This document shows, in pieces, positions 5,277 to 33,731 of a DNA stretch of 64,000 bases (its first letter is position 1; every line of letters begins with the position of its first letter). The stretch comes from an uncultured Hymenobacter sp. (lineage in GTDB: Bacteria; Bacteroidota; Bacteroidia; Cytophagales; Hymenobacteraceae): NCBI GenBank assembly GCA_913776615.1, contig CAJYPK010000016.1, forward strand, positions 1 to 64,000, given 5' to 3'. A model generated the notes under the pieces. That model did not search any database. It had not been told where the DNA came from and saw nothing but the letters and a program-made list of their open reading frames with translations. The translations under genes and the position numbers were made by a program.

Positions 5277-7301
5277 ATGAGTGAAGTAGTAGAAAAGAAA
5301 GCCCCCGCCGCCGATTATTCGGCCGACAGCATTCAGGTGCTGGAAGGGCTGGAGGCGGTGCGCAAGCGCCCGAGTATGTACATCGGCGACACGGGTATTA
5401 AGGGCCTCCACCACCTGGTGTGGGAAGTAGTCGATAATTCCATCGACGAGGCGCTGGCTGGGCACTGCGACCTGATTCAGGTTACCATAAACGAAAATAA
5501 TTCGATTACCGTCCGCGACAACGGCCGGGGGATTCCCGTCGATTTTCACGCCAAGGAGGGCCGCTCGGCCCTCGAAGTAGTACTCACCGTGCTGCACGCC
5601 GGCGGCAAGTTCGATAAAGACTCGTACAAGGTATCGGGTGGCCTGCACGGCGTGGGCGTAAGCTGCGTCAACGCGCTCAGCACCGACCTCAAGGTGACCG
5701 TGCGCCGCAAGGGGCACGTGTACCAGCAGGAGTACAGCATCGGCCAGCCGCTGTACCCGGTGAAGGAAATCGGTGACACCGACGAGCACGGCACGGAGGT
5801 GCAGTTCCTGCCCGACCCCACCATCTTCCCCGAAACCGAGTACCGCTACGCGACCATCGCCAGCCGCCTGCGCGACCTGTCGTTTTTGAACAAGGGCATC
5901 CGCATCACGCTGACCGACCGCCGCGAGAAGCCGCTGGGCGACGCCGCCATCGGCCACGTCGATGCCGAGGGCTTCCGCTACGAGGAGTTTTATTCGCAGG
6001 GCGGCCTGCGCGACTTCGTGCAGTACCTCGACGGCACCGAGCGCCCCTCGCTGCTGGCCGAGCCCATCTACGTGGAAAGCGAGAAGGGCGGCACGCCGGT
6101 AGAAGTGGCCTTGCAGTACAATACCTCGTACCAGGAAAACGTCTACTCGTACGTCAACAACATCAATACCATCGAGGGCGGCACGCACGTGGGCGGCTTC
6201 CGCTCGGCCGTGACGCGGGTGCTGAAGTCGTACGGCGACAAGAAGCAGCTGTTTGAGAAGGCCAAAGTGGAAATCACCGGCGACGACTTCCGCGAAGGCC
6301 TCACGGCCGTTATCTCGGTGAAGGTGGCCGAGCCGCAGTTTGAGGGCCAGACCAAAACCAAGCTGGGCAACTCCGAGGTGAGCGGCGCGGTGAATACCGT
6401 GGTGGGTGAAATTCTGACCCAGTACCTGGAGGAAAACCCCAACCAGGCCAACAAAATCATGGAGAAGGTGATTCTGGCCGCCAAGGCCCGCATCGCCGCC
6501 CGCAAGGCCAAGGACATGGTGCAGCGCAAAAACGTGCTGGGCTCCAACTCCCTGCCCGGCAAGCTGGCCGACTGCTCCGACTCCGACCCCGAAGTGTGCG
6601 AGCTCTACCTCGTGGAAGGGGACTCGGCCGGTGGCACAGCCAAGCAGGGGCGCAACCGGGCTTTCCAGGCCATTCTGCCGCTGCGCGGTAAAATCCTGAA
6701 CGTGGAGAAGGCCCAGGAGCACAAAATCCTGGAGAACGAGGAAATCAAGAACATGATTACCGCGCTCGGCGTCACCTTCAACGAGCGTAAGTCGCTGGCC
6801 TTCGGCACCGACGACGAGGGTAACGAAACTGGCCCGCTGAACTTCGACAAGCTGCGCTACCACAAAATCATCATCATGACCGATGCTGATATCGATGGCT
6901 CGCACATTCGGACGCTCATCCTCACGTTCTTCTTCCGCTACATGCGGCAGCTCGTGGATCAGGGCTACATCTACATCGCCCTGCCGCCGCTCTACCTCGT
7001 GAAGCGCGGTAAAGAGGAACGCTACTGCTGGACCGAGGACGAGCGGGCCGCCGCTACCGAGGAGCTCGGCCGGGGCCGTCCTGAAACCGTAAACGTGCAG
7101 CGCTACAAGGGCTTGGGTGAAATGAACGCCGAGCAGCTCTGGGAAACCACCATGCAGCCCGAAACCCGCACGCTGAAGCAGGTGACGGTCGAGTCGGCCG
7201 CCGAGTCGGACCACCTGTTCTCGATGCTGATGGGCGACGAGGTGGCGCCGCGTCGCGACTTCATCGAGCAGAATGCCAAGTACGCCAAGCTCGACGTCTA
7301 G
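5277..7301 (+). CDS. gyrB: DNA gyrase subunit B
   Basis: This 674-residue GyrB supplies the ATPase of the type II topoisomerase that introduces negative supercoils. The GHKL ATPase domain shows VDNSIDEALAG and DNGRGIPVD, with GGLHGVGVS at about 120-130. The TOPRIM region has LYLVEGDSAGG (about 445) and the metal-binding IIIMTDADIDGSHIRT (about 535). The C-terminal EMNAEQLWETTM motif is intact, and the length is normal for the short form lacking the gamma-proteobacterial insert. The stop TAG at 7299-7301 is followed with no gap by the repeat ACCGCAGATTTAACGGAT. Confidence 0.98.
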   Translation: MSEVVEKKAPAADYSADSIQVLEGLEAVRKRPSMYIGDTGIKGLHHLVWEVVDNSIDEALAGHCDLIQVTINENNSITVRDNGRGIPVDFHAKEGRSALEVVLTVLHAGGKFDKDSYKVSGGLHGVGVSCVNALSTDLKVTVRRKGHVYQQEYSIGQPLYPVKEIGDTDEHGTEVQFLPDPTIFPETEYRYATIASRLRDLSFLNKGIRITLTDRREKPLGDAAIGHVDAEGFRYEEFYSQGGLRDFVQYLDGTERPSLLAEPIYVESEKGGTPVEVALQYNTSYQENVYSYVNNINTIEGGTHVGGFRSAVTRVLKSYGDKKQLFEKAKVEITGDDFREGLTAVISVKVAEPQFEGQTKTKLGNSEVSGAVNTVVGEILTQYLEENPNQANKIMEKVILAAKARIAARKAKDMVQRKNVLGSNSLPGKLADCSDSDPEVCELYLVEGDSAGGTAKQGRNRAFQAILPLRGKILNVEKAQEHKILENEEIKNMITALGVTFNERKSLAFGTDDEGNETGPLNFDKLRYHKIIIMTDADIDGSHIRTLILTFFFRYMRQLVDQGYIYIALPPLYLVKRGKEERYCWTEDERAAATEELGRGRPETVNVQRYKGLGEMNAEQLWETTMQPETRTLKQVTVESAAESDHLFSMLMGDEVAPRRDFIEQNAKYAKLDV

Positions 7302-7602
7302 ACCGCAGATTTAACGGATTAAACGGATTGCGCCGATACGCCCGCCAGGACCGCAGATTTAACGGATTAAACGGATTGCGCCGATACGCCCGCCAGCCTG
7401 CGGCGGCGGGCTGACTACTCGGATGTGAAGAAGGCTACCCAATTGGGTAGCCTTCTTTTTTTGGGCTTACATGGCTGGTATCCAAATAGTCAGCCCGCCG
7501 CCGCAGGCTGGCGGGCGTATCGGCGCAATCCGTTAAATCCGTTAAATCTGCGGTCCTGGCGGGCGTATCGGCGCAATCCGTTTAATCCGTTAAATCTGCG
7601 GT
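7302..7602. repeat. Family A punctuation element, complete double-armed copy
   Basis: Two head-to-tail units begin at 7302 and 7350, each starting ACCGCAGATTTAACGGAT and ending near GATACGCCCGCCAG. A GC-rich tail and a palindromic terminator (7428-7457) follow, then two units in inverted orientation ending at 7602. The whole 300-bp block is a large inverted repeat filling the space between convergent gyrB and the deaminase gene. Its left tip abuts the gyrB stop and its right tip abuts the deaminase stop. Translations of this block look like short ORFs rich in RRNPLNPLNLR but are not genes. Confidence 0.9.
7428..7457. terminator. Palindromic terminator with GGCTACCC core
   Basis: A 30-nt perfect palindrome with 13-bp arms around AATT is followed by a T-run to about 7462. 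It terminates gyrB and probably also the opposing deaminase transcript. The core is shared with 166-221 and 28438-28465. Confidence 0.9.
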
Positions 7603-8100
7603 CTAGTAGGTAGTGCGGTCCTGTTTGTCGGCCCAGGCTTTGAAGGATACGAGCGCCTCCTCGCGCAAAAATTGTTGCATGGGCAGGCGGCGCTGGTCGA
7701 GCGGCTTTTCCAGCTCCTCGTAGATAAACTGGTCGTCGAAGCCGATGGCTGCCGCGTCGGCCTTAGTGTTACCGTAGAACACCCGGGTCGGGCGCGCCCA
7801 GTAGATGGCTCCCAGGCACATGGGGCAGGGCTCGCAGGAGGTGTACAAGTCGCAGCCATCGAGCTGAAAGGTACCCAGCGCCTGGCAGGCCTTGCGGATG
7901 GCATCGACCTCGGCGTGGCAGGTGGGGTCGTTGGTGCTGGTGACCTGGTTGAAGCCGCGGGCAATGATCTGGCCGTCCTTGACGACCACCGCGCCGAACG
8001 GGCCGCCCCGGCCGGCCTGCATGTTGGTGAGCGAAAGGTCGATGGCCTCGCGCATAAACGCGGCCTCGGGGGCGGGAGGAAAAGAAAATGAATTTTTCAC
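7603..8100 (-). CDS. guaD: Guanine deaminase (GuaD-type cytidine deaminase fold)
   Basis: This 165-residue protein aligns by eye along its length with Bacillus-type GuaD, which converts guanine to xanthine. It has GGPFGAVVVKDG, then the zinc motif CHAEVDAIRKAC and TSCEPCPMCLGAIYWARP. The His/Glu of HAE and two Cys of PCPMC form the zinc site. The GFDDQFIYEEL stretch after the core favours guanine deaminase over tRNA adenosine deaminase. Its TAG stop at 7603-7605 is fused to the family A repeat. Confidence 0.85.
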   Translation of the reverse strand: MKNSFSFPPAPEAAFMREAIDLSLTNMQAGRGGPFGAVVVKDGQIIARGFNQVTSTNDPTCHAEVDAIRKACQALGTFQLDGCDLYTSCEPCPMCLGAIYWARPTRVFYGNTKADAAAIGFDDQFIYEELEKPLDQRRLPMQQFLREEALVSFKAWADKQDRTTY

Positions 8101-20760: not shown

Positions 20761-20918
20761 CTTTTAAGGTGATTAGGTGATGGAGTGAGGAAGTGAAAGG
20801 TGTAAGGAAAGCAGGGGCCGTGGGTTGGCCGGAAGCGGATAGCCATGAGTTGGAACGAGTTGCTTGCCTGACACCGGCTCACTAGCTTCCTTATCGTGCT
20901 GGCAGCGAAATCAGTTAC

Positions 20919-20936
20919 ATCCGTTAAATCTGCGGT
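20919..20936 (-). repeat. Family A tip (solo, truncated)
   Basis: Read on the minus strand, the stop TAA of the DUF2256 gene runs straight into CCGCAGATTTAACGGAT. Only the tip of family A is present and there is no inverted partner. Confidence 0.75.
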
Positions 20937-25975: not shown

Positions 25976-26035
25976 CCAGCCCGCCGGAGGCGGGCGTATC
26001 CCCGAAATCCGTTTAATCCGTTAAATCTGCGGTCC
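25976..26035 (-). repeat. Family A unit abutting the ppk1 start codon
   Basis: An inverted family A unit ends ATCCGTTAAATCTGCGGTCC, and the next base is the A of the ppk1 ATG at 26036. The native leader and ribosome-binding region of ppk1 are therefore made of repeat sequence. Confidence 0.85.
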
Positions 26036-28369
26036 ATGAAGTTATTTAAGTCGGCCGACCTTATTCGCAAAAGCAAGTACATCAGCCGCGATCTGAGCTG
26101 GCTGCGCTTCAACTACCGGGTGCTCGACCAGGCCAAAGATCCCGGCCGCTCGCTGTTCGACAAGCTGCGCTTCCTGAGCATTACCAGCTCCAACCTGGAC
26201 GAGTTTTTCATGATTCGGGTGGGCTCGCTGTATAATTACCTGGATTATGGGAAGGAGCGCGTCGATTACTCGGGCCTGCGCGAGCTGCCGTTTCGGCGCA
26301 AGCTGCTCGACTTTGCCCACCGCTTCGTCAACGACCAGTCGCTGACTTACCTCAACGAGCTCAAGCCGCAGTTTGAGAAACAGGGCTTCAGCATCCGCCG
26401 CGTGGAAGAGCTGACCGAGGTCGAGCTGAAAAAGGTGGAGGGCTACTTCAAAAACACCGTTTTTCCGCTGCTCACGCCGATGGTGTACGACTCGTACCAC
26501 GGCTTCCCGCTCATCATGAACCAGGTACTGACCTTCGGCGTGGTGACGCGGGAGGCCGGGGCCAGCGAGGGCGCGCCGACCGGTATGGCCCCTGATCTGG
26601 AAAAAGGGCAAGAGCGACTCACCTTCGTGCAGATTCCGCAAAACCTGACGCGCTTTTTCGAGATCACGCGCAAGGATCGGGTAGTGTTCGTACCCATCGA
26701 AGAAATCGTGCGGGCTAACCTGCACAAGCTCTTCCGCAACGTCGAAATTGTGTCGGCCGACCTGCTGCGCATTACCCGCAACGGCGATTTTACCCTGGAA
26801 GAGTCGGAAGATATCGACAGCGACTTTATCAAAGAAATCCAAACCGGCCTCAAAACTCGCAAGCGGGGCCGGGTAGTGCGCGTGGAAGTCGAGCCCGATG
26901 CCTCGCCCTACCTGATGAACGTGCTGCGCGAGCGCTGGAACATCGACAACGGCAACATCTTCGTGATTCCGGTGCTGCTGGATATGAAGGGGTTGAACCA
27001 GATTCTGCGCTACCCGAGCTTCAAGGGCAAAGGTGCCAAGCTGCCCGCGCCCGTGCTGCCCCAGAGCCTGCCCGAAGGGGCGGAGGACAACATGTTCGAG
27101 TACCTCAAGCACCACGACGTGCTGCTGCACCACCCGTATAATTCAATCGAGCCGGTGGTGCGCCTGTTGGAGCGGGCGGCCGAGGACCCGCAGGTGCTGG
27201 GTATCAAGCAAACGATTTACCGGCTGGCCGAAGACTCGCGGGTAACGGCCGCGCTGCTCAAGGCCGCTGAGAACGGCAAGCACGTATCGGTGCTGTTTGA
27301 GGTGAAGGCCCGCTTCGACGAGGAGCGCAATATCCGGGAGGGCGCTCGGCTCGAAAAGGCGGGCTGCTTCGTCATCTACGGCGTGGGGCGGTACAAGACC
27401 CACACCAAGATGCTCATGATTATCCGCAAGGAAGGGGAGAAGGTGACGCGCTACGTGCACATCGGCTCGGGTAACTACAACGAGCAAACCTCGCGCCTCT
27501 ACACCGATCTGAGCATGCTTACCACCAACGATACGTACGGTCACGACGTGTCGGAATTCTTCAACGTAATCACCGGCCACTCGCAGCCCGACGACTACGA
27601 ATACCTCATCACGGCCCCGCGCGACATGCGCCAGCAACTCATCCACTTAGTGCGCGAGGAAGCTAAAAATGCCAAGAAAGGTCTGCCCAGTGGCATCGTC
27701 ATGAAAATGAACTCGCTGGAAGACCGGGAGCTGATTGACGAGTTTTACAAGGCCAGCAAAGCCGGGGTACCCATCCGCTTTATCGTGCGGGGCATTTGCT
27801 GCCTGCGGCCGGGCCGGGCGGGCCTCAGCGAGAATATCGAGGTGAAGAGCATCGTGGGCGAATACCTGGAGCACGCCCGCCTGTTTTATTTCCACCACGG
27901 CGGCGAGGCCCGACTTTACGCTGGCTCGGCCGACGCGATGGTGCGCTCCTTCGACCGCCGCATCGAGGCGGTGTTCCTGATTGTGAATCCGCAGCTGCGC
28001 CGTGAGGCCATCAATATCTTACAGCTCAACCTGCTCGATACCCAGAATAGCTACCTCATGCGTGAGGATGGTGCCTACATCTGCCAGCGCCCGGCGGCCG
28101 GCGAGCCGTCGGTCAACATCCACCGCGAATTTTACCGCCGCCCCGACGAGGCACAGCTAGCCCAGGCTACGCCCGAGGGTCTGCTGGCCCTATTGCACGA
28201 CCAAACTGCCAAGCGCCGTCAGCAAGCCGCCGCGGGGGCTAGTCCTACGAATGCCGTTGCCCCGGCAATTGCTGTAGAAGAGGGCGCCGACGAATTTGGC
28301 CAGGGCGAGGCGCTGATGGAAGTTGAGGTAGAAAACGAGGCCGACATAACCGCAGATTTAACTGATTAA
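26036..28369 (+). CDS. ppk1: Polyphosphate kinase 1
   Basis: This 777-residue enzyme reversibly polymerises the gamma phosphate of ATP into polyphosphate. The N-domain opens YISRDLSWLRFNYRVL, followed by SSNLDEFFMIRVG. The catalytic C1/C2 domains carry HPYNSIEPVVRLLERA, IKQTIYRLAEDS, and RYKTHTKMLMI, whose His456 is the expected phospho-acceptor. The core ends near residue 700. The remaining 75 residues (Ala/Gln-rich, then acidic) are an extension. The last codons (ITADLTD) and the stop are read from a family A repeat. The ATG lies flush against another copy. The gene faces ppx. Confidence 0.97.
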   Translation: MKLFKSADLIRKSKYISRDLSWLRFNYRVLDQAKDPGRSLFDKLRFLSITSSNLDEFFMIRVGSLYNYLDYGKERVDYSGLRELPFRRKLLDFAHRFVNDQSLTYLNELKPQFEKQGFSIRRVEELTEVELKKVEGYFKNTVFPLLTPMVYDSYHGFPLIMNQVLTFGVVTREAGASEGAPTGMAPDLEKGQERLTFVQIPQNLTRFFEITRKDRVVFVPIEEIVRANLHKLFRNVEIVSADLLRITRNGDFTLEESEDIDSDFIKEIQTGLKTRKRGRVVRVEVEPDASPYLMNVLRERWNIDNGNIFVIPVLLDMKGLNQILRYPSFKGKGAKLPAPVLPQSLPEGAEDNMFEYLKHHDVLLHHPYNSIEPVVRLLERAAEDPQVLGIKQTIYRLAEDSRVTAALLKAAENGKHVSVLFEVKARFDEERNIREGARLEKAGCFVIYGVGRYKTHTKMLMIIRKEGEKVTRYVHIGSGNYNEQTSRLYTDLSMLTTNDTYGHDVSEFFNVITGHSQPDDYEYLITAPRDMRQQLIHLVREEAKNAKKGLPSGIVMKMNSLEDRELIDEFYKASKAGVPIRFIVRGICCLRPGRAGLSENIEVKSIVGEYLEHARLFYFHHGGEARLYAGSADAMVRSFDRRIEAVFLIVNPQLRREAINILQLNLLDTQNSYLMREDGAYICQRPAAGEPSVNIHREFYRRPDEAQLAQATPEGLLALLHDQTAKRRQQAAAGASPTNAVAPAIAVEEGADEFGQGEALMEVEVENEADITADLTD

Positions 28370-28547
28370 ACGGATTGCGCGGATACGCCCGCCAGCCTCC
28401 GGCGGCGGGCTGACTACTCGGATGGTCTCTTCAAAAGAAAAGGCTACCCAATTGGGTAGCCTTTTTTGGCGAGTCCGCTGGCTTAGTCAGCCCGCCGCCG
28501 CAGGCTGGCGTATCCCCGAAATCCGTTTAATCCGTTAAATCTGCGGT
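28349..28547. repeat. Family A punctuation element between ppk1 and ppx
   Basis: One unit on each side encloses a palindromic terminator. The left unit begins inside the ppk1 coding region at 28349; the right unit ends against the ppx stop TAG (28548-28550). The two arms differ at several sites (GCGCGGATACG on the left against TCGGGGATACG on the right), so pairing is good but imperfect. Confidence 0.88.
28438..28465. terminator. Palindromic terminator with GGCTACCC core
   Basis: AAAAGGCTACCC, AATT, GGGTAGCCTTTT form a perfect palindrome with T residues continuing. It is the same core as at 7428-7457 and terminates ppk1 and ppx. Confidence 0.9.
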
Positions 28548-29525
28548 CTAGACGAGGGGGCCGTTCTCCACATCCGGCACGGGCAAAATGCTGGGGTGCA
28601 CGGTGGGACTGATTTCGTCGAAATACTGTTCGAAAAGCGCCTGTAACATGCCGTCTTTCAAGCCAATATCCGGCACTATCATGTTGCTGACCCCAGCCCA
28701 TTCCATCGCGGAAAGGTAGATGTGGCCCGCGGGTACGATAACGTCGGCGCGGTCGGGGTTGAGCATGGCCACGTTGACGCGCTCGCTCATGCTCATCTTG
28801 CTGAGGCGGTCGAGCACGGCCTGCACGCTGCGCTTGGTGACGGGCTTGTTGGGGGCGGCGGGGGAGAGGCTGTAAATCTTGTTGATGTTACCGCCCGTGC
28901 CGATGGCCCGCGTTACGTGATAGCGGCGGGCATTTTCGTGCACCCAGGCTTCCATACGCTGCCAGAGGCCGTTCATTTCCTCGACGGTGCGGCCGCGCTC
29001 TTCCTGCTGCATCCGGCGGATGGAGCCGATTTCAAACGACTGCGCGGCCACCTTGCGGCGGTCGTAGTAGATGTTGAACTCGGTGCTGCCGCCGCCCACG
29101 TCGATGTGCAGGTAGTGGCGGTTGTCTTCGAGCAGGTGCTCGATTACGCGGTTGATGTAGGCAGCTTCGGCTTGGCCATCAATAACTTGAATTTCGAGGC
29201 CCAGCTCGTCTTTTACCCGCTGGGCCACGGCCGCGCCGTTGGCGGCGGTCCGCATGGCCGAGGTGGCGCAAATGAGGTGGTGCGATACCTCGTGCACTTC
29301 CATCAACAGCTTGAGTGAGTGCAGAAACTTTACGAATTTATCGGCCTTGCGGGCCGGAATCTCGCCGGTGGCAAACACGTCTTCGCCCAGTCGTAGCGGG
29401 TAGCGCACGTACTCCACGCGCTTGAGCCGGTAACGTCCCTGAAAAAACAACACGGCTGAAATCTGACAGCGCACGGCATTGGAGCCAATATCAATGGCGG
29501 CGAGCTTAGTCAGTTGATACTCCAT
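28548..29525 (-). CDS. ppx: Exopolyphosphatase / Ppx-GppA phosphatase
   Basis: This 325-residue ASKHA-fold protein hydrolyses terminal phosphate from polyphosphate or pppGpp. The phosphate-1 motif is LAAIDIGSNAVRCQIS (residues 8-23), and the phosphate-2 motif is HIDVGGGSTEFNIY (about 139). It has only the two N-terminal domains, like the short Ppx2-type enzymes, and lacks the HD-like C-domain of E. coli Ppx. It is convergent with ppk1, so synthesis and breakdown enzymes are neighbours. Its start codon directly follows a family A tip and its stop codon meets another. Confidence 0.93.
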   Translation of the reverse strand: MEYQLTKLAAIDIGSNAVRCQISAVLFFQGRYRLKRVEYVRYPLRLGEDVFATGEIPARKADKFVKFLHSLKLLMEVHEVSHHLICATSAMRTAANGAAVAQRVKDELGLEIQVIDGQAEAAYINRVIEHLLEDNRHYLHIDVGGGSTEFNIYYDRRKVAAQSFEIGSIRRMQQEERGRTVEEMNGLWQRMEAWVHENARRYHVTRAIGTGGNINKIYSLSPAAPNKPVTKRSVQAVLDRLSKMSMSERVNVAMLNPDRADVIVPAGHIYLSAMEWAGVSNMIVPDIGLKDGMLQALFEQYFDEISPTVHPSILPVPDVENGPLV

Positions 29526-29965
29526 AGACCGCAGATTTAACGGATTTAACGGATTTCGGGGATGCGCCCGCTGGCCTGTGGCGGCGGGCTATTCGAAAGT
29601 CCAATGATACAAGTAGCAAAGGTAGACCGCAGATTTAACGGATTTAACGGATTTCGGGGATACGCCCGCTGGCCTGTGGCGGATCGCAGATTTAACGGAT
29701 GAAACGGATTGCGCAGATACGCCCGTCGACCGGCAGCGGGCGGGATGATTAGGCAACTATACTAATAGAATATGGTACGGTACATGGTAAGGGAAAGGGC
29801 TCGCCACCGGCACGTTGATAGTCGAAGTCCCTAACGCCACCACCTGGCCCGCCCGCCGCCAGTCGATGGGCGTATCTGCGCAATCCGTTTCATCCGTTAA
29901 ATCTGCGATCCGCCGCAGGCTGGCGGGCGTATCCGCGCAATCCGTTTAATCCGTTAAATCAGCGG
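29526..29965. repeat. Family A cluster between ppx and the phosphoesterase gene
   Basis: Three plus-oriented units begin at about 29527, 29625 and 29685, and two inverted units end at about 29893 and 29965. The third and fourth units share private variants (GGATGAAACGG and TTGCGCAGATACG), making them mirror images of each other. The outer tips abut the ppx start and the stop TGA of the next gene. About 110 bp in the middle are unique sequence. On the minus strand, 29624-29617 reads TACCTTTG, a possible -7 box for ppx. Confidence 0.85.
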
Positions 29966-32900
29966 TCATTTGTCGATCCGGAAGCCCAGGCCGAACTGAA
30001 TAAGGCTGTTTTCTTCCGAAATCTGATAGGAGACGGAAAAGGCCAGCGTCTCTACTACCGGGGCCAGGTAAACGCCCCCGCCGTAGCCGGCGTGCCAGCC
30101 GCCGGGCGAGCTGCCGTTGTAGTACACCCGGCCTTGGTCGTAGAAGCCAAATACCCCGTAGCGGAAGGGCAGAAAGTGGTTTTTGCTCTGGCCCAGTGCG
30201 AAGCGCAGCTCGGAGTTGTAATACAGGCTGGCATCGCCAGTGAAGCGGTTGCGGTAGTAGCCGCGCAGGTTCTCGGCCAGGCCCAGGCTGGTGAGCTTGT
30301 AGAAGGGGATGGCCTCGTCGGGGCCGTAGTTGGCCGCGCCGCCGCCCTTGAGGACCAGCGTGATTGGAATGCCGATTTTGGCCGTGCCGTAGTATTCAGC
30401 AAAGCCCTGGGTGAGCCCGAAGCGGCGCTTGTCGCCGGTGAGGGCCTGGTACGAGTCGTGGCGCACGAGCAGGCGCACGCCGCGCTGGGCAAACGAGCGG
30501 CGGTTACGCAGATCGAGGTCGAGCAGGGCATTGAGCCCCACCAGGCGCTGAAAATCAGCATTCGGACGCGGGTTGTCCTGGCCGGGTAGCTGCTGGCGGA
30601 GGTCCTGGCCGAGCTGGCTGTCGGTGGCGTAGTTGGCGTTGTAGTGCTCGTAGCTGGGGCCGAATCGGAACACGCTGCGCTGCCAGAATACCCGCTCGCC
30701 GAAGGCCCGGATGACGAAGCCCTTGTAGCGGGCCCGGTAGTAGCGGGCATCGTACAAGTCCTCGGTTTTCTGGGTGTTATTGCCGATGCCGAAGAAGTTG
30801 TAGAACGGGAAATAATTACCGTAGCTCACTTCCGCCCCTAAGTCTACCTTGCCGATGGCGTAGCGGTGGCGGCTGGCCGCCGTAAGCTGGAACTGCCCGC
30901 CCGTCGAAGTCTGGAGACTAAAATCGTAGCGATTCTTATAGTCGGGCTTGCGGAAGCCCTGGCGTAAAAAGCTCAGGCCCAGGCTAAGGCCGAAGCCGTC
31001 GTTGCGGTTGTAGAAAATGCCGGCCCGGGGCGCGTAGCTATTGAATTCAAAGGCCTCGCGGTCGTAAGCGTTCACGCTGGGGCTATCGGAGCGGCGGTCG
31101 TCGGTTTCGGAGCCAGCGGTGAGGGTAGTGCCGGGCGTGTCGTACACCTTCGTCAGGGTGCGCAGGCCGGGGGCGCGGGAGTCGTCGGCAATCTGGTCTT
31201 TGCCCGCGCCGCCTACCACGTGCACCACGATACTATGCTTGTCGCTCTGACCGGTCACCTGAAAAATATCCTGGCCGTCGAGGCCGTACACGCAGATTTC
31301 CTGGGTTTCCCGGGGATCAAAGGTGCGGTCGAACAGCGCCGGGCCGTTGGGCTCCTGGGTATCGCCCTTGCGGTCAAATTCCTGCACGCGCACCCGGCCG
31401 TCGGCCAGGCGCTCCACCTTGAAAATCTCGGCCTTGTTGGAGCCTACTACATCGACGCGGCGGGCCAGCAGCAGGTAGTAGCGGTCGATAGCCTGGGGTA
31501 ACTGCTGGAGGCGGGCCTTGAGCTTGCGGTTGATTTCCTGGCCCGACAGCGGCTGGACCTCGGCTGGCATCGTAGCCGTAGCCTGGTCGATAACGGCCGG
31601 CGTGAGCTGGGCTTGCAGGTACTTGGCGGCGGTTTGCCAGTCCTGGCGAGTCAGGCTTTGCAGCAAGAAGCGGTCGAGATGGCGAGCCGGCCAGTTGAGA
31701 CTCTTCATATCGCCAAACTCCTCACCAAAATCCTCAATGCTGGGTACGGCCCACTCACGGTTGGCCAGGTAGGTGAGCAGGCCGTTCCACTTGGTAAAGG
31801 CCTGGTCGCGGTCGCGCGGAATGGGGCGGTATACGGTGCCCTTCCCTTCCTTGTAGCCCGCCCATTTCCAGTTATCCTCGTGCTTGCCGAAGTCGGCCAC
31901 GAGCATGTCGAAGGCGCGGGCGCGGGCCAGCGCGGGGGCATCCACCCGGTTGTCGTGGTCCTTATACAGCTTGCGGAAAAAGCCGTAGCTGCGCGTTACC
32001 TCGTCCGACTTGCCGAAGCCGGGCAGGTTGGGCTTCGGGTCGGTGGGGCGGTCTTCCAGCGTACCGAGCAGGCCGGCGTAGTCCTGGCGGTAGGGGCCGA
32101 GCTGGTTATTATCAGGCAGGCGAAACAAGCGCGGCCGGGCGTGCAAAATGTCGGTGTGGTCGAGCAGCGCGCTGATGGGCAGGCCCGAATACGGGTTGGC
32201 CGTGGCCGTGATATCCTTGAGAATATCCGACACGAACGACTGCTGCAGCTCGGGCGGCAGAATGCCGGTCACGTCCTTATCGACCGAGCGGAACACGTAC
32301 TCGGCGCTGTCGGCCGCGATGAGCTTGAGCGAGGTCGTTTGCCGCCCCCCGCCCCGGCCGAAGGGCGTGAGCCCACCCTTCTCGCGGCGCAAATCCAGCG
32401 TGGGCACCTGCACCGGCTGGAGCCACGACGACCGATAGAGCGACCCGATGAAAAACCGCTTTGAGGGGCCGGCCTTGTACTCCGGCCCCGGCACCACGGT
32501 GGTAGTGGCCCGAAACGGCGCGTCGGGCTTGCGTTCGGCGGGCGTCCGCTTGGTGCCAGGGCAGCTTGTAATGAAGGAGTTGACCGGCACCCCGCCCGCC
32601 GTGTCGGCCGCGCAGGGCGAGCGGAACAGCGTGCCTACGTACGCCTGCGTAGCGGGCTGGCCTTCGCCCGCAAACGTGAAGAACCGGCTCTTCACCGTGC
32701 CATCGGCGTAGTAGTCGAGGGCCGCGTAGCCGTCGGCCTTCTCGTTGAAAAGAGCCTGCCCATCGGCCCCCACGTGCTGGCTTTGCACGAAGCTGCCCGC
32801 CACGAGATGGTAGTTGCCCTGGAAAGGCGTGAGCTGCAAGGAATAGTCGTGCGAGGCAGCGTATACCACACCGGGGTTACTGCGCAAGGTGTTGTTGAGC

Positions 32901-33697
32901 AATTCTTTGCGCAGCTCCTGGTAGCGTGGGTTGGCCAGGTCGCGGGGCGAGCCCACGTTTTGGCGGTAGGCAGCGTAAATGGTGCCCAGCACGGGCGGGC
33001 TGAGGTGGCGGCTCAGCGGCTCGTGGCCGCCGTACACGCCGGTGGTCACTACCGGGTGGTGGCCCACCAGCAGCAGGTTTTTGCCCTTGGTGTCGTCGAT
33101 CACGTCTTGCAGCTGCTCGCGAAACTCCTCCTTGGTCAGGGTTTTGCAATCCGTATCGGGAGCTTCGGGGCGGTCGTAGGGGTGCGTAAACCAGGGGGTG
33201 TTGAGGGCCACGAGCCGCACGAGCGGGGCGATATCGACCACCTCGGGGCCGGGGCAGCCGTTGGTCGGCACGAAGGCGTTTTGGCCGGGTAATTCCTTTT
33301 CAATATACTTTTCGAGGCGGCGCACGGCCTTTAGGCCATTGCGGCCCGAGTTGGCCCAGTCCTTATCGCCGGGTACGAAGTAGATTTTGCCCAGCGGCAG
33401 GCCTTTAACCAAGTTAATCAGGGCGTCGGCGCGGCCTTTTTCCTGCTGCGAGAGGGCCGAGTCTTTCTTGGAAACCAGCCCCTCATTGCCCACGATATCG
33501 CCCAAGTGCACCACCGTGAAGGGCGTTTTTTGCTGCTCCAGCGTTTGGCGCAGCAGTCGCAGGCGGGCGGCGGGCAGCTCGCCCTGGGCCGTGTTGCCCA
33601 GCAAAAAAACGGTATGCGCCGGCTGGGCAGTTTGGGCTAAAACAGGGCTGGAAATCAGCCAGCCGGCAGCTAAGAGGGCGGGGAAAAGTTTCTGCAT
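29966..33697 (-). CDS. Metallophosphoesterase fused to an outer-membrane beta-barrel
   Basis: This 1243-residue protein starts at the ATG at 33697 (MQKLFPALLAAGW) with a signal peptide of about 22 residues. The calcineurin-like domain (about 25-330) has VVHLGDIVGNEG, a PGDKDW motif in place of the usual GNHD, LLLVGHHPVV, and YAASHDYSLQL. The central region (about 400-800) contains HEDNWKWAGYKEG and YRPIPRDRDQAFTKW, which I cannot name with certainty. The C-terminal 330 residues are alternating strands of a surface-antigen-like barrel ending FGLGFRIDK. It may act on phosphate compounds at the cell surface; its location beside ppk1 and ppx is suggestive only. The stop TGA is fused to family A. 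Confidence 0.8.
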   Translation of the reverse strand: MQKLFPALLAAGWLISSPVLAQTAQPAHTVFLLGNTAQGELPAARLRLLRQTLEQQKTPFTVVHLGDIVGNEGLVSKKDSALSQQEKGRADALINLVKGLPLGKIYFVPGDKDWANSGRNGLKAVRRLEKYIEKELPGQNAFVPTNGCPGPEVVDIAPLVRLVALNTPWFTHPYDRPEAPDTDCKTLTKEEFREQLQDVIDDTKGKNLLLVGHHPVVTTGVYGGHEPLSRHLSPPVLGTIYAAYRQNVGSPRDLANPRYQELRKELLNNTLRSNPGVVYAASHDYSLQLTPFQGNYHLVAGSFVQSQHVGADGQALFNEKADGYAALDYYADGTVKSRFFTFAGEGQPATQAYVGTLFRSPCAADTAGGVPVNSFITSCPGTKRTPAERKPDAPFRATTTVVPGPEYKAGPSKRFFIGSLYRSSWLQPVQVPTLDLRREKGGLTPFGRGGGRQTTSLKLIAADSAEYVFRSVDKDVTGILPPELQQSFVSDILKDITATANPYSGLPISALLDHTDILHARPRLFRLPDNNQLGPYRQDYAGLLGTLEDRPTDPKPNLPGFGKSDEVTRSYGFFRKLYKDHDNRVDAPALARARAFDMLVADFGKHEDNWKWAGYKEGKGTVYRPIPRDRDQAFTKWNGLLTYLANREWAVPSIEDFGEEFGDMKSLNWPARHLDRFLLQSLTRQDWQTAAKYLQAQLTPAVIDQATATMPAEVQPLSGQEINRKLKARLQQLPQAIDRYYLLLARRVDVVGSNKAEIFKVERLADGRVRVQEFDRKGDTQEPNGPALFDRTFDPRETQEICVYGLDGQDIFQVTGQSDKHSIVVHVVGGAGKDQIADDSRAPGLRTLTKVYDTPGTTLTAGSETDDRRSDSPSVNAYDREAFEFNSYAPRAGIFYNRNDGFGLSLGLSFLRQGFRKPDYKNRYDFSLQTSTGGQFQLTAASRHRYAIGKVDLGAEVSYGNYFPFYNFFGIGNNTQKTEDLYDARYYRARYKGFVIRAFGERVFWQRSVFRFGPSYEHYNANYATDSQLGQDLRQQLPGQDNPRPNADFQRLVGLNALLDLDLRNRRSFAQRGVRLLVRHDSYQALTGDKRRFGLTQGFAEYYGTAKIGIPITLVLKGGGAANYGPDEAIPFYKLTSLGLAENLRGYYRNRFTGDASLYYNSELRFALGQSKNHFLPFRYGVFGFYDQGRVYYNGSSPGGWHAGYGGGVYLAPVVETLAFSVSYQISEENSLIQFGLGFRIDK

Positions 33698-33731
33698 ACG
33701 GGAAGGGTAATGGCGCACTTACGCACAAAAA

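Follow-up and report, generated by a model that had tools for sequence, protein, structure and literature searches.

Two mirrored repeat arms beside the ppx gene of an uncultured Hymenobacter form the inner pair of a nested element in a dispersed repeat family, and copying of one arm onto its partner probably keeps them alike. They lie in the window, the whole stretch of 64,000 nucleotides that was analysed, between a Ppx/GppA phosphatase gene on the left (28548..29525, minus strand) and a 1250-aa ORF on the right (29966..33718, minus strand), which has no Pfam match and was labelled a phosphoesterase in the first-pass annotation. The genome holding the window, a 6.08-Mb draft, is referred to as G000. 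Across the family, the arms of a pair are alike, they change jointly between species, a repeat unit has been gained on both arms of a pair, and spacers have been inverted in two cases. We infer from this the chemistry of the copying and any enzyme involved: one arm would be copied onto its mirror partner, most likely by polymerase template switching or by recombination between the inverted arms while these are folded into a hairpin or cruciform, and the same process would flip the spacer and pass an added unit from arm to arm.

The inner left arm (29682..29739, plus strand) carries ATCGCAG, GGATGAAACGG and TTGCGCAGATACG, and the inner right arm (29853..29910, minus strand) is identical to it at 55 of 58 positions, including all of the first 43. 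The pair is nested inside an outer pair, 29625..29682 (plus strand) and 29910..29967 (minus strand), whose arms match at 51 of 58 positions and whose right arm abuts the stop end of the ORF at 29966-33718; the nested mirror element fills the junction. Positions 29625-29744 and 29848-29967 together make a single 120-nt inverted repeat with 92% complementarity. A further plus-strand unit, unpaired in G000, is situated outermost at 29527..29584, 2 nt upstream of the ppx start codon. An Rfam search of the window returned two tRNAs only.

GGATGAAACGG occurs in the window solely at 29697 (+) and 29885 (-), and TTGCGCAGATACG solely at 29709 (+) and 29871 (-). The bare 7-mer ATCGCAG has four more minus-strand matches in the window (11119, 34324, 37562 and 42611), none of them among the repeat matches. 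The family 16-mer, allowing up to three mismatches, matches the window 17 times versus 0.26 expected. The first-pass annotation had held that the inner arms share variants unlike those of every other copy in the window and that they are near-exact mirror images; both claims stand, and the observation is confirmed as real and far above chance. All three variants together are found in two of 148 arms from the 80 G000 regions examined, namely the inner pair, and in none of 130 arms of the relative G120, another uncultured Hymenobacter MAG. Singly, ATCGCAG is present in 27, TTGCGCAGATACG in 22 and GGATGAAACGG in 4 of the 148 G000 arms.

The family to which the pair belongs is large. With up to two mismatches, CGCAGATTTAACGGAT is found at 157 or more places in G000 versus one for the reversed pattern. 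The 148 arms were collected by a profile search of the 80 regions (L068-L147), and 98 of them form 49 inward-facing pairs with a separation of at most 700 bp, while 50 have no partner within 700 bp and outward-facing neighbours within that distance are absent. The arm begins beside the gene with a 9-nt periodic outer part, often followed by a small GC hairpin that takes several self-complementary forms, then by CTGACTA and the spacer. The arm motif may bear some resemblance to the attC site of integrons, a class defined by an integrase gene and a cassette array. When the longest ORF is simply taken as the gene, an ORF boundary lies within 3 nt of 55 of the 87 arms that face gene 3′ ends and of 27 of the 60 that face 5′ ends. 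We also note that arms in L068-L147 of G000 are flush with stop and start codons far oftener than free insertion would predict. Spacers are mostly unrelated from locus to locus, and many of them, judged by eye, contain a terminator-like hairpin. Some loops are nevertheless common to non-orthologous loci (57 nt at 94.7% and 73 nt at 87.7% identity), so units or parts of units can move. A further repeat, of the form GTCATGCTGAGCTTGCGAAGCATC, recurs in the long loops of L088, L091 and L114.

Elsewhere in the window, a second mirrored pair (28346..28550) is located between the polyphosphate kinase and Ppx/GppA genes; its G120 orthologue carries TGCTTACAGCGG in both arms, the only two among 125 arms. 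Lone minus-strand units with no partner nearby are seen at 20904-20936 and 25985-26034. At C16:75657-75774 and C1:202718-202776 of G000, contig ends fall inside repeat copies, which indicates that the draft assembly breaks at repeats. The 22-nt family pattern is present in at least 20 of the 120 genomes of the genus, and among the matches listed are also Alkalitalea, Flavobacterium and Salinivirgaceae records. In Alkalitalea saponilacus (L253), eleven related repeat copies are situated within 8 kb, all in one direction and none mirrored. A literature search on the repeat strings gave no title concerning bacterial repeats of this kind, and one naming GxxExxY, the family of the spacer genes described below, gave no title concerning such repeats; in the literature searched, we came across no account of the family, nor any of GxxExxY genes enclosed by mirrored repeats.

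Likeness of paired arms recurs across the family. Within-pair identity in G000, measured over columns 3-43 for the 47 of 49 pairs in which both arms are long enough, is 0.920 versus 0.879 when partners are shuffled (sd 0.005; reached in 0 of 5000 shuffles). Between loci, left arms resemble left arms (0.873) and right arms resemble right arms (0.882) at the shuffled level. The same feature is observed in G120 (0.933 versus 0.887, 0 of 3000 shuffles; 48 pairs, two of them counted double as one stretch was taken twice), in H. polaris (0.904 versus 0.840, 8 of 3000; 14 pairs) and in other Hymenobacter pooled (0.805 versus 0.747, 2 of 3000; 11 pairs). In the G000 and G120 tests, pairs nested at the same locus are not independent of each other. 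Arm identity shows no clear fall with spacer length (Spearman -0.18, p 0.10).

Comparison with G120 allowed change to be followed in orthologous pairs. Thirty-six orthologous G000-G120 pairs were matched via their flanks, and 32 quartets of arms were retained after four were dropped: a false match, L093 (1850)/L198, whose flanks are themselves arms, and three with an unalignable arm. Columns beyond about 48 of L093/L181 and L095/L172 are non-orthologous inner sequence and were not used. The same change is present in both arms at 24 sites, versus a single instance of the swap pattern, which should be as frequent as the concerted one if the arms had changed independently and in parallel. At 40 further sites, concentrated at few loci, the two arms differ from each other in both species, and homogenisation is therefore incomplete. 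The difference between the two classes of site follows the position in the arm: columns 2-8 have no concerted site and 11 kept differences, and columns 9-43 have 24 and 29, respectively (Fisher p 0.005). The first-pass annotation had proposed that arms changing together between strains would speak for conversion or pairing; in the comparison made here, between species, the concerted sites agree with this expectation and the kept differences do not. On these alignments, joint arm evolution at many loci is well supported.

Joint change would also result if a ready-symmetrical arm-loop-arm unit inserts or recombines as a whole, in which case both arms change without local copying, and we regard this as a possible, though less probable, general explanation. 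In 17 of the 32 quartets the loop identity is below 0.75, and there replacement of the whole unit explains the joint change equally well; these quartets hold 17 of the 24 concerted sites and the one swap. The loops common to non-orthologous loci are likewise what moving units would leave behind. The 15 quartets with loop identity of 0.75 or more, however, still contain 7 concerted sites and no swap.

Gain or replacement of a whole unit may also apply to the ppx junction itself. G120, which is 93% identical to G000 in the genes flanking the inner pair (among the matches listed), has conserved orthologues of both outer arms and of the flanks, and lacks both inner arms together with the loop of the G000 type (29740..29852 in the window). 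Compared forward (57%) or reversed (54%), the G000 loop is not clearly homologous to that of G120, and an inversion of the loop at this junction is unsupported. As the inner arms and the loop are missing together, they were gained in G000 or lost in G120 as one unit. By this comparison, the last event at the inner pair may have been such a gain or loss of a whole arm-loop-arm, or replacement of the whole unit, and the likeness of the inner arms may be older than that event or may have been maintained afterwards. The claim that two separate insertions would not share the variants had thus left this whole-unit route out of account. The arms upstream of ppx nonetheless match each other through variants that are rare elsewhere in each of three species: the three-variant combination in G000, TTTCGCCGATACG in G120 (4 of 125 arms, two of these at the junction) and CGGAGATACG in H. 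polaris (2 of 41 arms, both at the junction). The between-species comparison at this junction therefore favours joint change.

Structural changes at other pairs point to copying from arm to arm. The third mirrored element of the window (7301..7603) has two units per arm versus one in G120, so an extra 48-bp unit is present on both arms. In G120 its loop matches the G000 loop in reverse complement (94% over 89 nt), with flanks in the same orientation. The L091 junction is the second case of spacer inversion between unchanged flanks: here the GxxExxY spacer gene is inverted in G118 versus G036, G098 and G074. In G120, C196 contains a mirrored array, three units on the left and two on the right, in which the second units of the two sides share rare variants; its G000 orthologue has one and two units. 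A unit gained on both arms and two spacers inverted in place would be expected of copying between arms, and exchange of whole units leaves unexplained both the inversion between unchanged flanks and the symmetry of the donor unit.

A second arm type ends in CGGATTTTGTGGACG and has exact copies in G118 (25), Hymenobacter sp. UV11 (G098; 37), H. polaris RP-2-7 (G074; 19), G036 (17) and G000 (7). By hand count, 14 of 21 distinct second-type junctions in G118, G098, G074 and G036 align to first-type regions of G000, a set covering 5.3% of that genome; two of the G000 junctions were matched twice. Twelve second-type comparisons, nine of them from the aligned junctions, were inspected closely, and both flanks are anchored in 11. 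The second-type arms are well mirrored within species in several (84/85, 34/34, 44/46 and 41/44) and poorly mirrored in L317 (56/95) and L333 (91/145). Among the four relatives of L072, L154 (45/57), L157 (80/123) and L160 (64/98) are poorly mirrored and L284 is well mirrored (41/43). The position of a junction and its mirror symmetry can thus outlast the sequence of the arms. A counter-example to stability of the site is the G120 pair L223, whose G000 site has no arms. At that G000 site (C15 189488-190147, L307) a small ORF is present together with a terminator-like palindrome that is long and perfect, and several other loops contain, by eye, terminators with unusually long perfect stems.

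The spacers of some pairs contain a gene. Three loop ORFs, in L073, L327 and L364, were tested, and all match GxxExxY (TIGR04256) and PDDEXK_3 (PF13366) above the cut-offs. A tblastn search with the L327 protein over the examined loci, with copies merged, identified eight Hymenobacter loci, and in all eight the gene is located between mirrored arms, in a sample that favours the association since its loci were chosen for holding arms (L351, L358 and L364 for wide arm spacing). By their flanks, the eight loci represent three junctions: L073 (66/68 arm positions matching), L186 (63/69) and L351 (55/58); L327 (81/81), L339 (75/81), L358 (79/80) and L364 (82/82); and L331 (46/48). In L327, L339, L358 and L364 each arm ends, by eye, in a terminator-like hairpin and a T-run. 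In L358 an insertion that carries a transposase-like ORF interrupts the GxxExxY gene. At the second of these junctions the arms agree within species (81/81 in G036, 75/81 in G098 and 79/80 in G074), whereas left arms compared among G036, G098 and G074 agree at only 67/85, 71/83 and 68/84 positions. The gene between them is orthologous, and arms that match within a species and differ between species around an orthologous spacer gene stand against replacement of the whole unit. The L091 junction has a GxxExxY gene in G036, G098, G074 and G118, and arms only in G000 and G120.

Outside Hymenobacter, the arm pattern led to a locus of Flavobacterium chilense that contains a GxxExxY gene with imperfect arms (34/41). 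Eight plasmid records with a GxxExxY gene (L367-L374) were also compared, and further plasmid searches yielded these eight again. Inverted arms are clear in those of Bacteroides, Bernardetia and Sphingomonas (0 of 300 shuffles each; rank 1 of 18, 38 and 38 genes, respectively), and direct repeats flank the gene in the Fusobacteria and Prevotella records (0 of 300 shuffles each). The Treponema record gives a weak inverted-arm signal (14 of 300 shuffles), the Gemmatirosa record failed the 100-nt test and has a 505-nt inverted repeat of 73% further out, and the Persicobacter record has no repeat around the gene. Short periodic repeats are seen beside GxxExxY genes of the plasmid records in several phyla. 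In viral contigs, 57 stretches fitting the GxxExxY pattern were considered and none was confirmed, and no GxxExxY gene was found in phages. A single-sequence structure model of the L073 protein had a mean pLDDT of 38.9 and was discarded. The 64-kb window has no GxxExxY gene, hence the inner pair at the ppx junction has none.

Judged from sequence, the link between GxxExxY genes and mirrored arms is an association only. A tentative and rather doubtful extension is that mirrored arms bound gene-edge elements of a class so far undescribed, the gene-bearing form of which would encode a GxxExxY PD-(D/E)XK nuclease that cuts or resolves the arm hairpin or cruciform and so drives arm copying, spacer inversion and loop exchange; the many pairs lacking the gene, the ppx pair among them, would then be derivatives from which it was lost, as at the L091 junction in G000 and G120, and the periodic repeats in other phyla would belong to the same class. 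We keep this reading tentative since only three junctions account for the eight loci. The link is the part most worth following, and location between mirrored arms gives the GxxExxY family a clue from genome context that experiments can address.

Selection for an RNA stem, in which the transcript must pair and a mutation in one arm is matched in the other, is an unlikely source of the likeness. The predicted folds are strong (z-scores for 29625-29967 of -22.4 as DNA and -23.9 as RNA), transcribed genes flank the pairs (of 89 pairs, 37 have convergent and 46 have co-directional neighbours), and the small in-arm hairpin keeps its self-complementarity in several forms. In the 46 co-directional pairs, however, transitions compatible with wobble pairing are as frequent on the transcript (38) as on the other strand (37), and neither the 48-bp unit on both arms nor the inverted spacers are compensatory point changes. 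The transcribed strand thus shows no surplus of wobble pairs, and this test lends RNA compensation no support. The first-pass annotation had named gene conversion, template switching and selection for a stem as candidate causes; homogenisation is upheld as a genome-wide process by joint change, recurring likeness of pairs, mirrored unit gain and spacer inversions, and the compensatory alternative is not. The paired arms may have a role at the level of DNA or a weak role in RNA.

That a Y1 (RAYT-type) transposase moves the pairs as REPIN-like mobile doublets, with likeness reflecting subfamilies, is very improbable: the inverted doublets are dispersed at gene edges and G000 has four Y1_Tnp matches, yet no arm lies within the approximately 3.2-kb loci of these four genes, arms of the same side resemble each other between loci at the shuffled level and less than partners do, and most spacers are not common to different loci.

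The mirrored pairs can be placed beside known bacterial and eukaryotic systems. REP, BIME and REPIN sequences (PMC3116915, PMC3733652) are like the Hymenobacter arms in being extragenic, in opposite orientation and able to fold together. PMC3733652 further describes REP ends that provide a neighbouring gene with its TAG stop, and many Hymenobacter arms similarly sit on stop codons. The REPIN layout of two inverted units around a spacer is found in the 49 inward-facing pairs among 148 arms. In contrast to REP and REPIN, the Hymenobacter arms are longer, have a 9-nt periodic part and enclose long unrelated spacers, some with a GxxExxY gene. The REPIN tag GTAG/CGTC was considered by eye: the small hairpin of the window arms is preceded by ATACG and followed by CTGACTA, and the second arm type ends in GTGGACG, the complement of which contains CGTC. 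The element is REPIN-like in layout but fails the transposase link.

Homogenisation of arms and inversion of spacers by template switching are already known. Both have been reported in yeast genes (PMC8604942), and template switching has been proposed to make inverted-repeat arms alike for RNA hairpins (PMC8794818). The Hymenobacter pairs are similar to these systems in that arms converge, spacers invert and several bases change together. They differ in that the repeats are dispersed and many, with arms of 45-85 nt and spacers of mostly 58-540 nt, and in that we infer the mechanism. Since arm copying can imitate compensatory evolution, covariation of the arms of a bacterial stem is alone no proof of a selected RNA structure. 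The family thereby offers a many-locus bacterial system for measuring copying between inverted-repeat arms.
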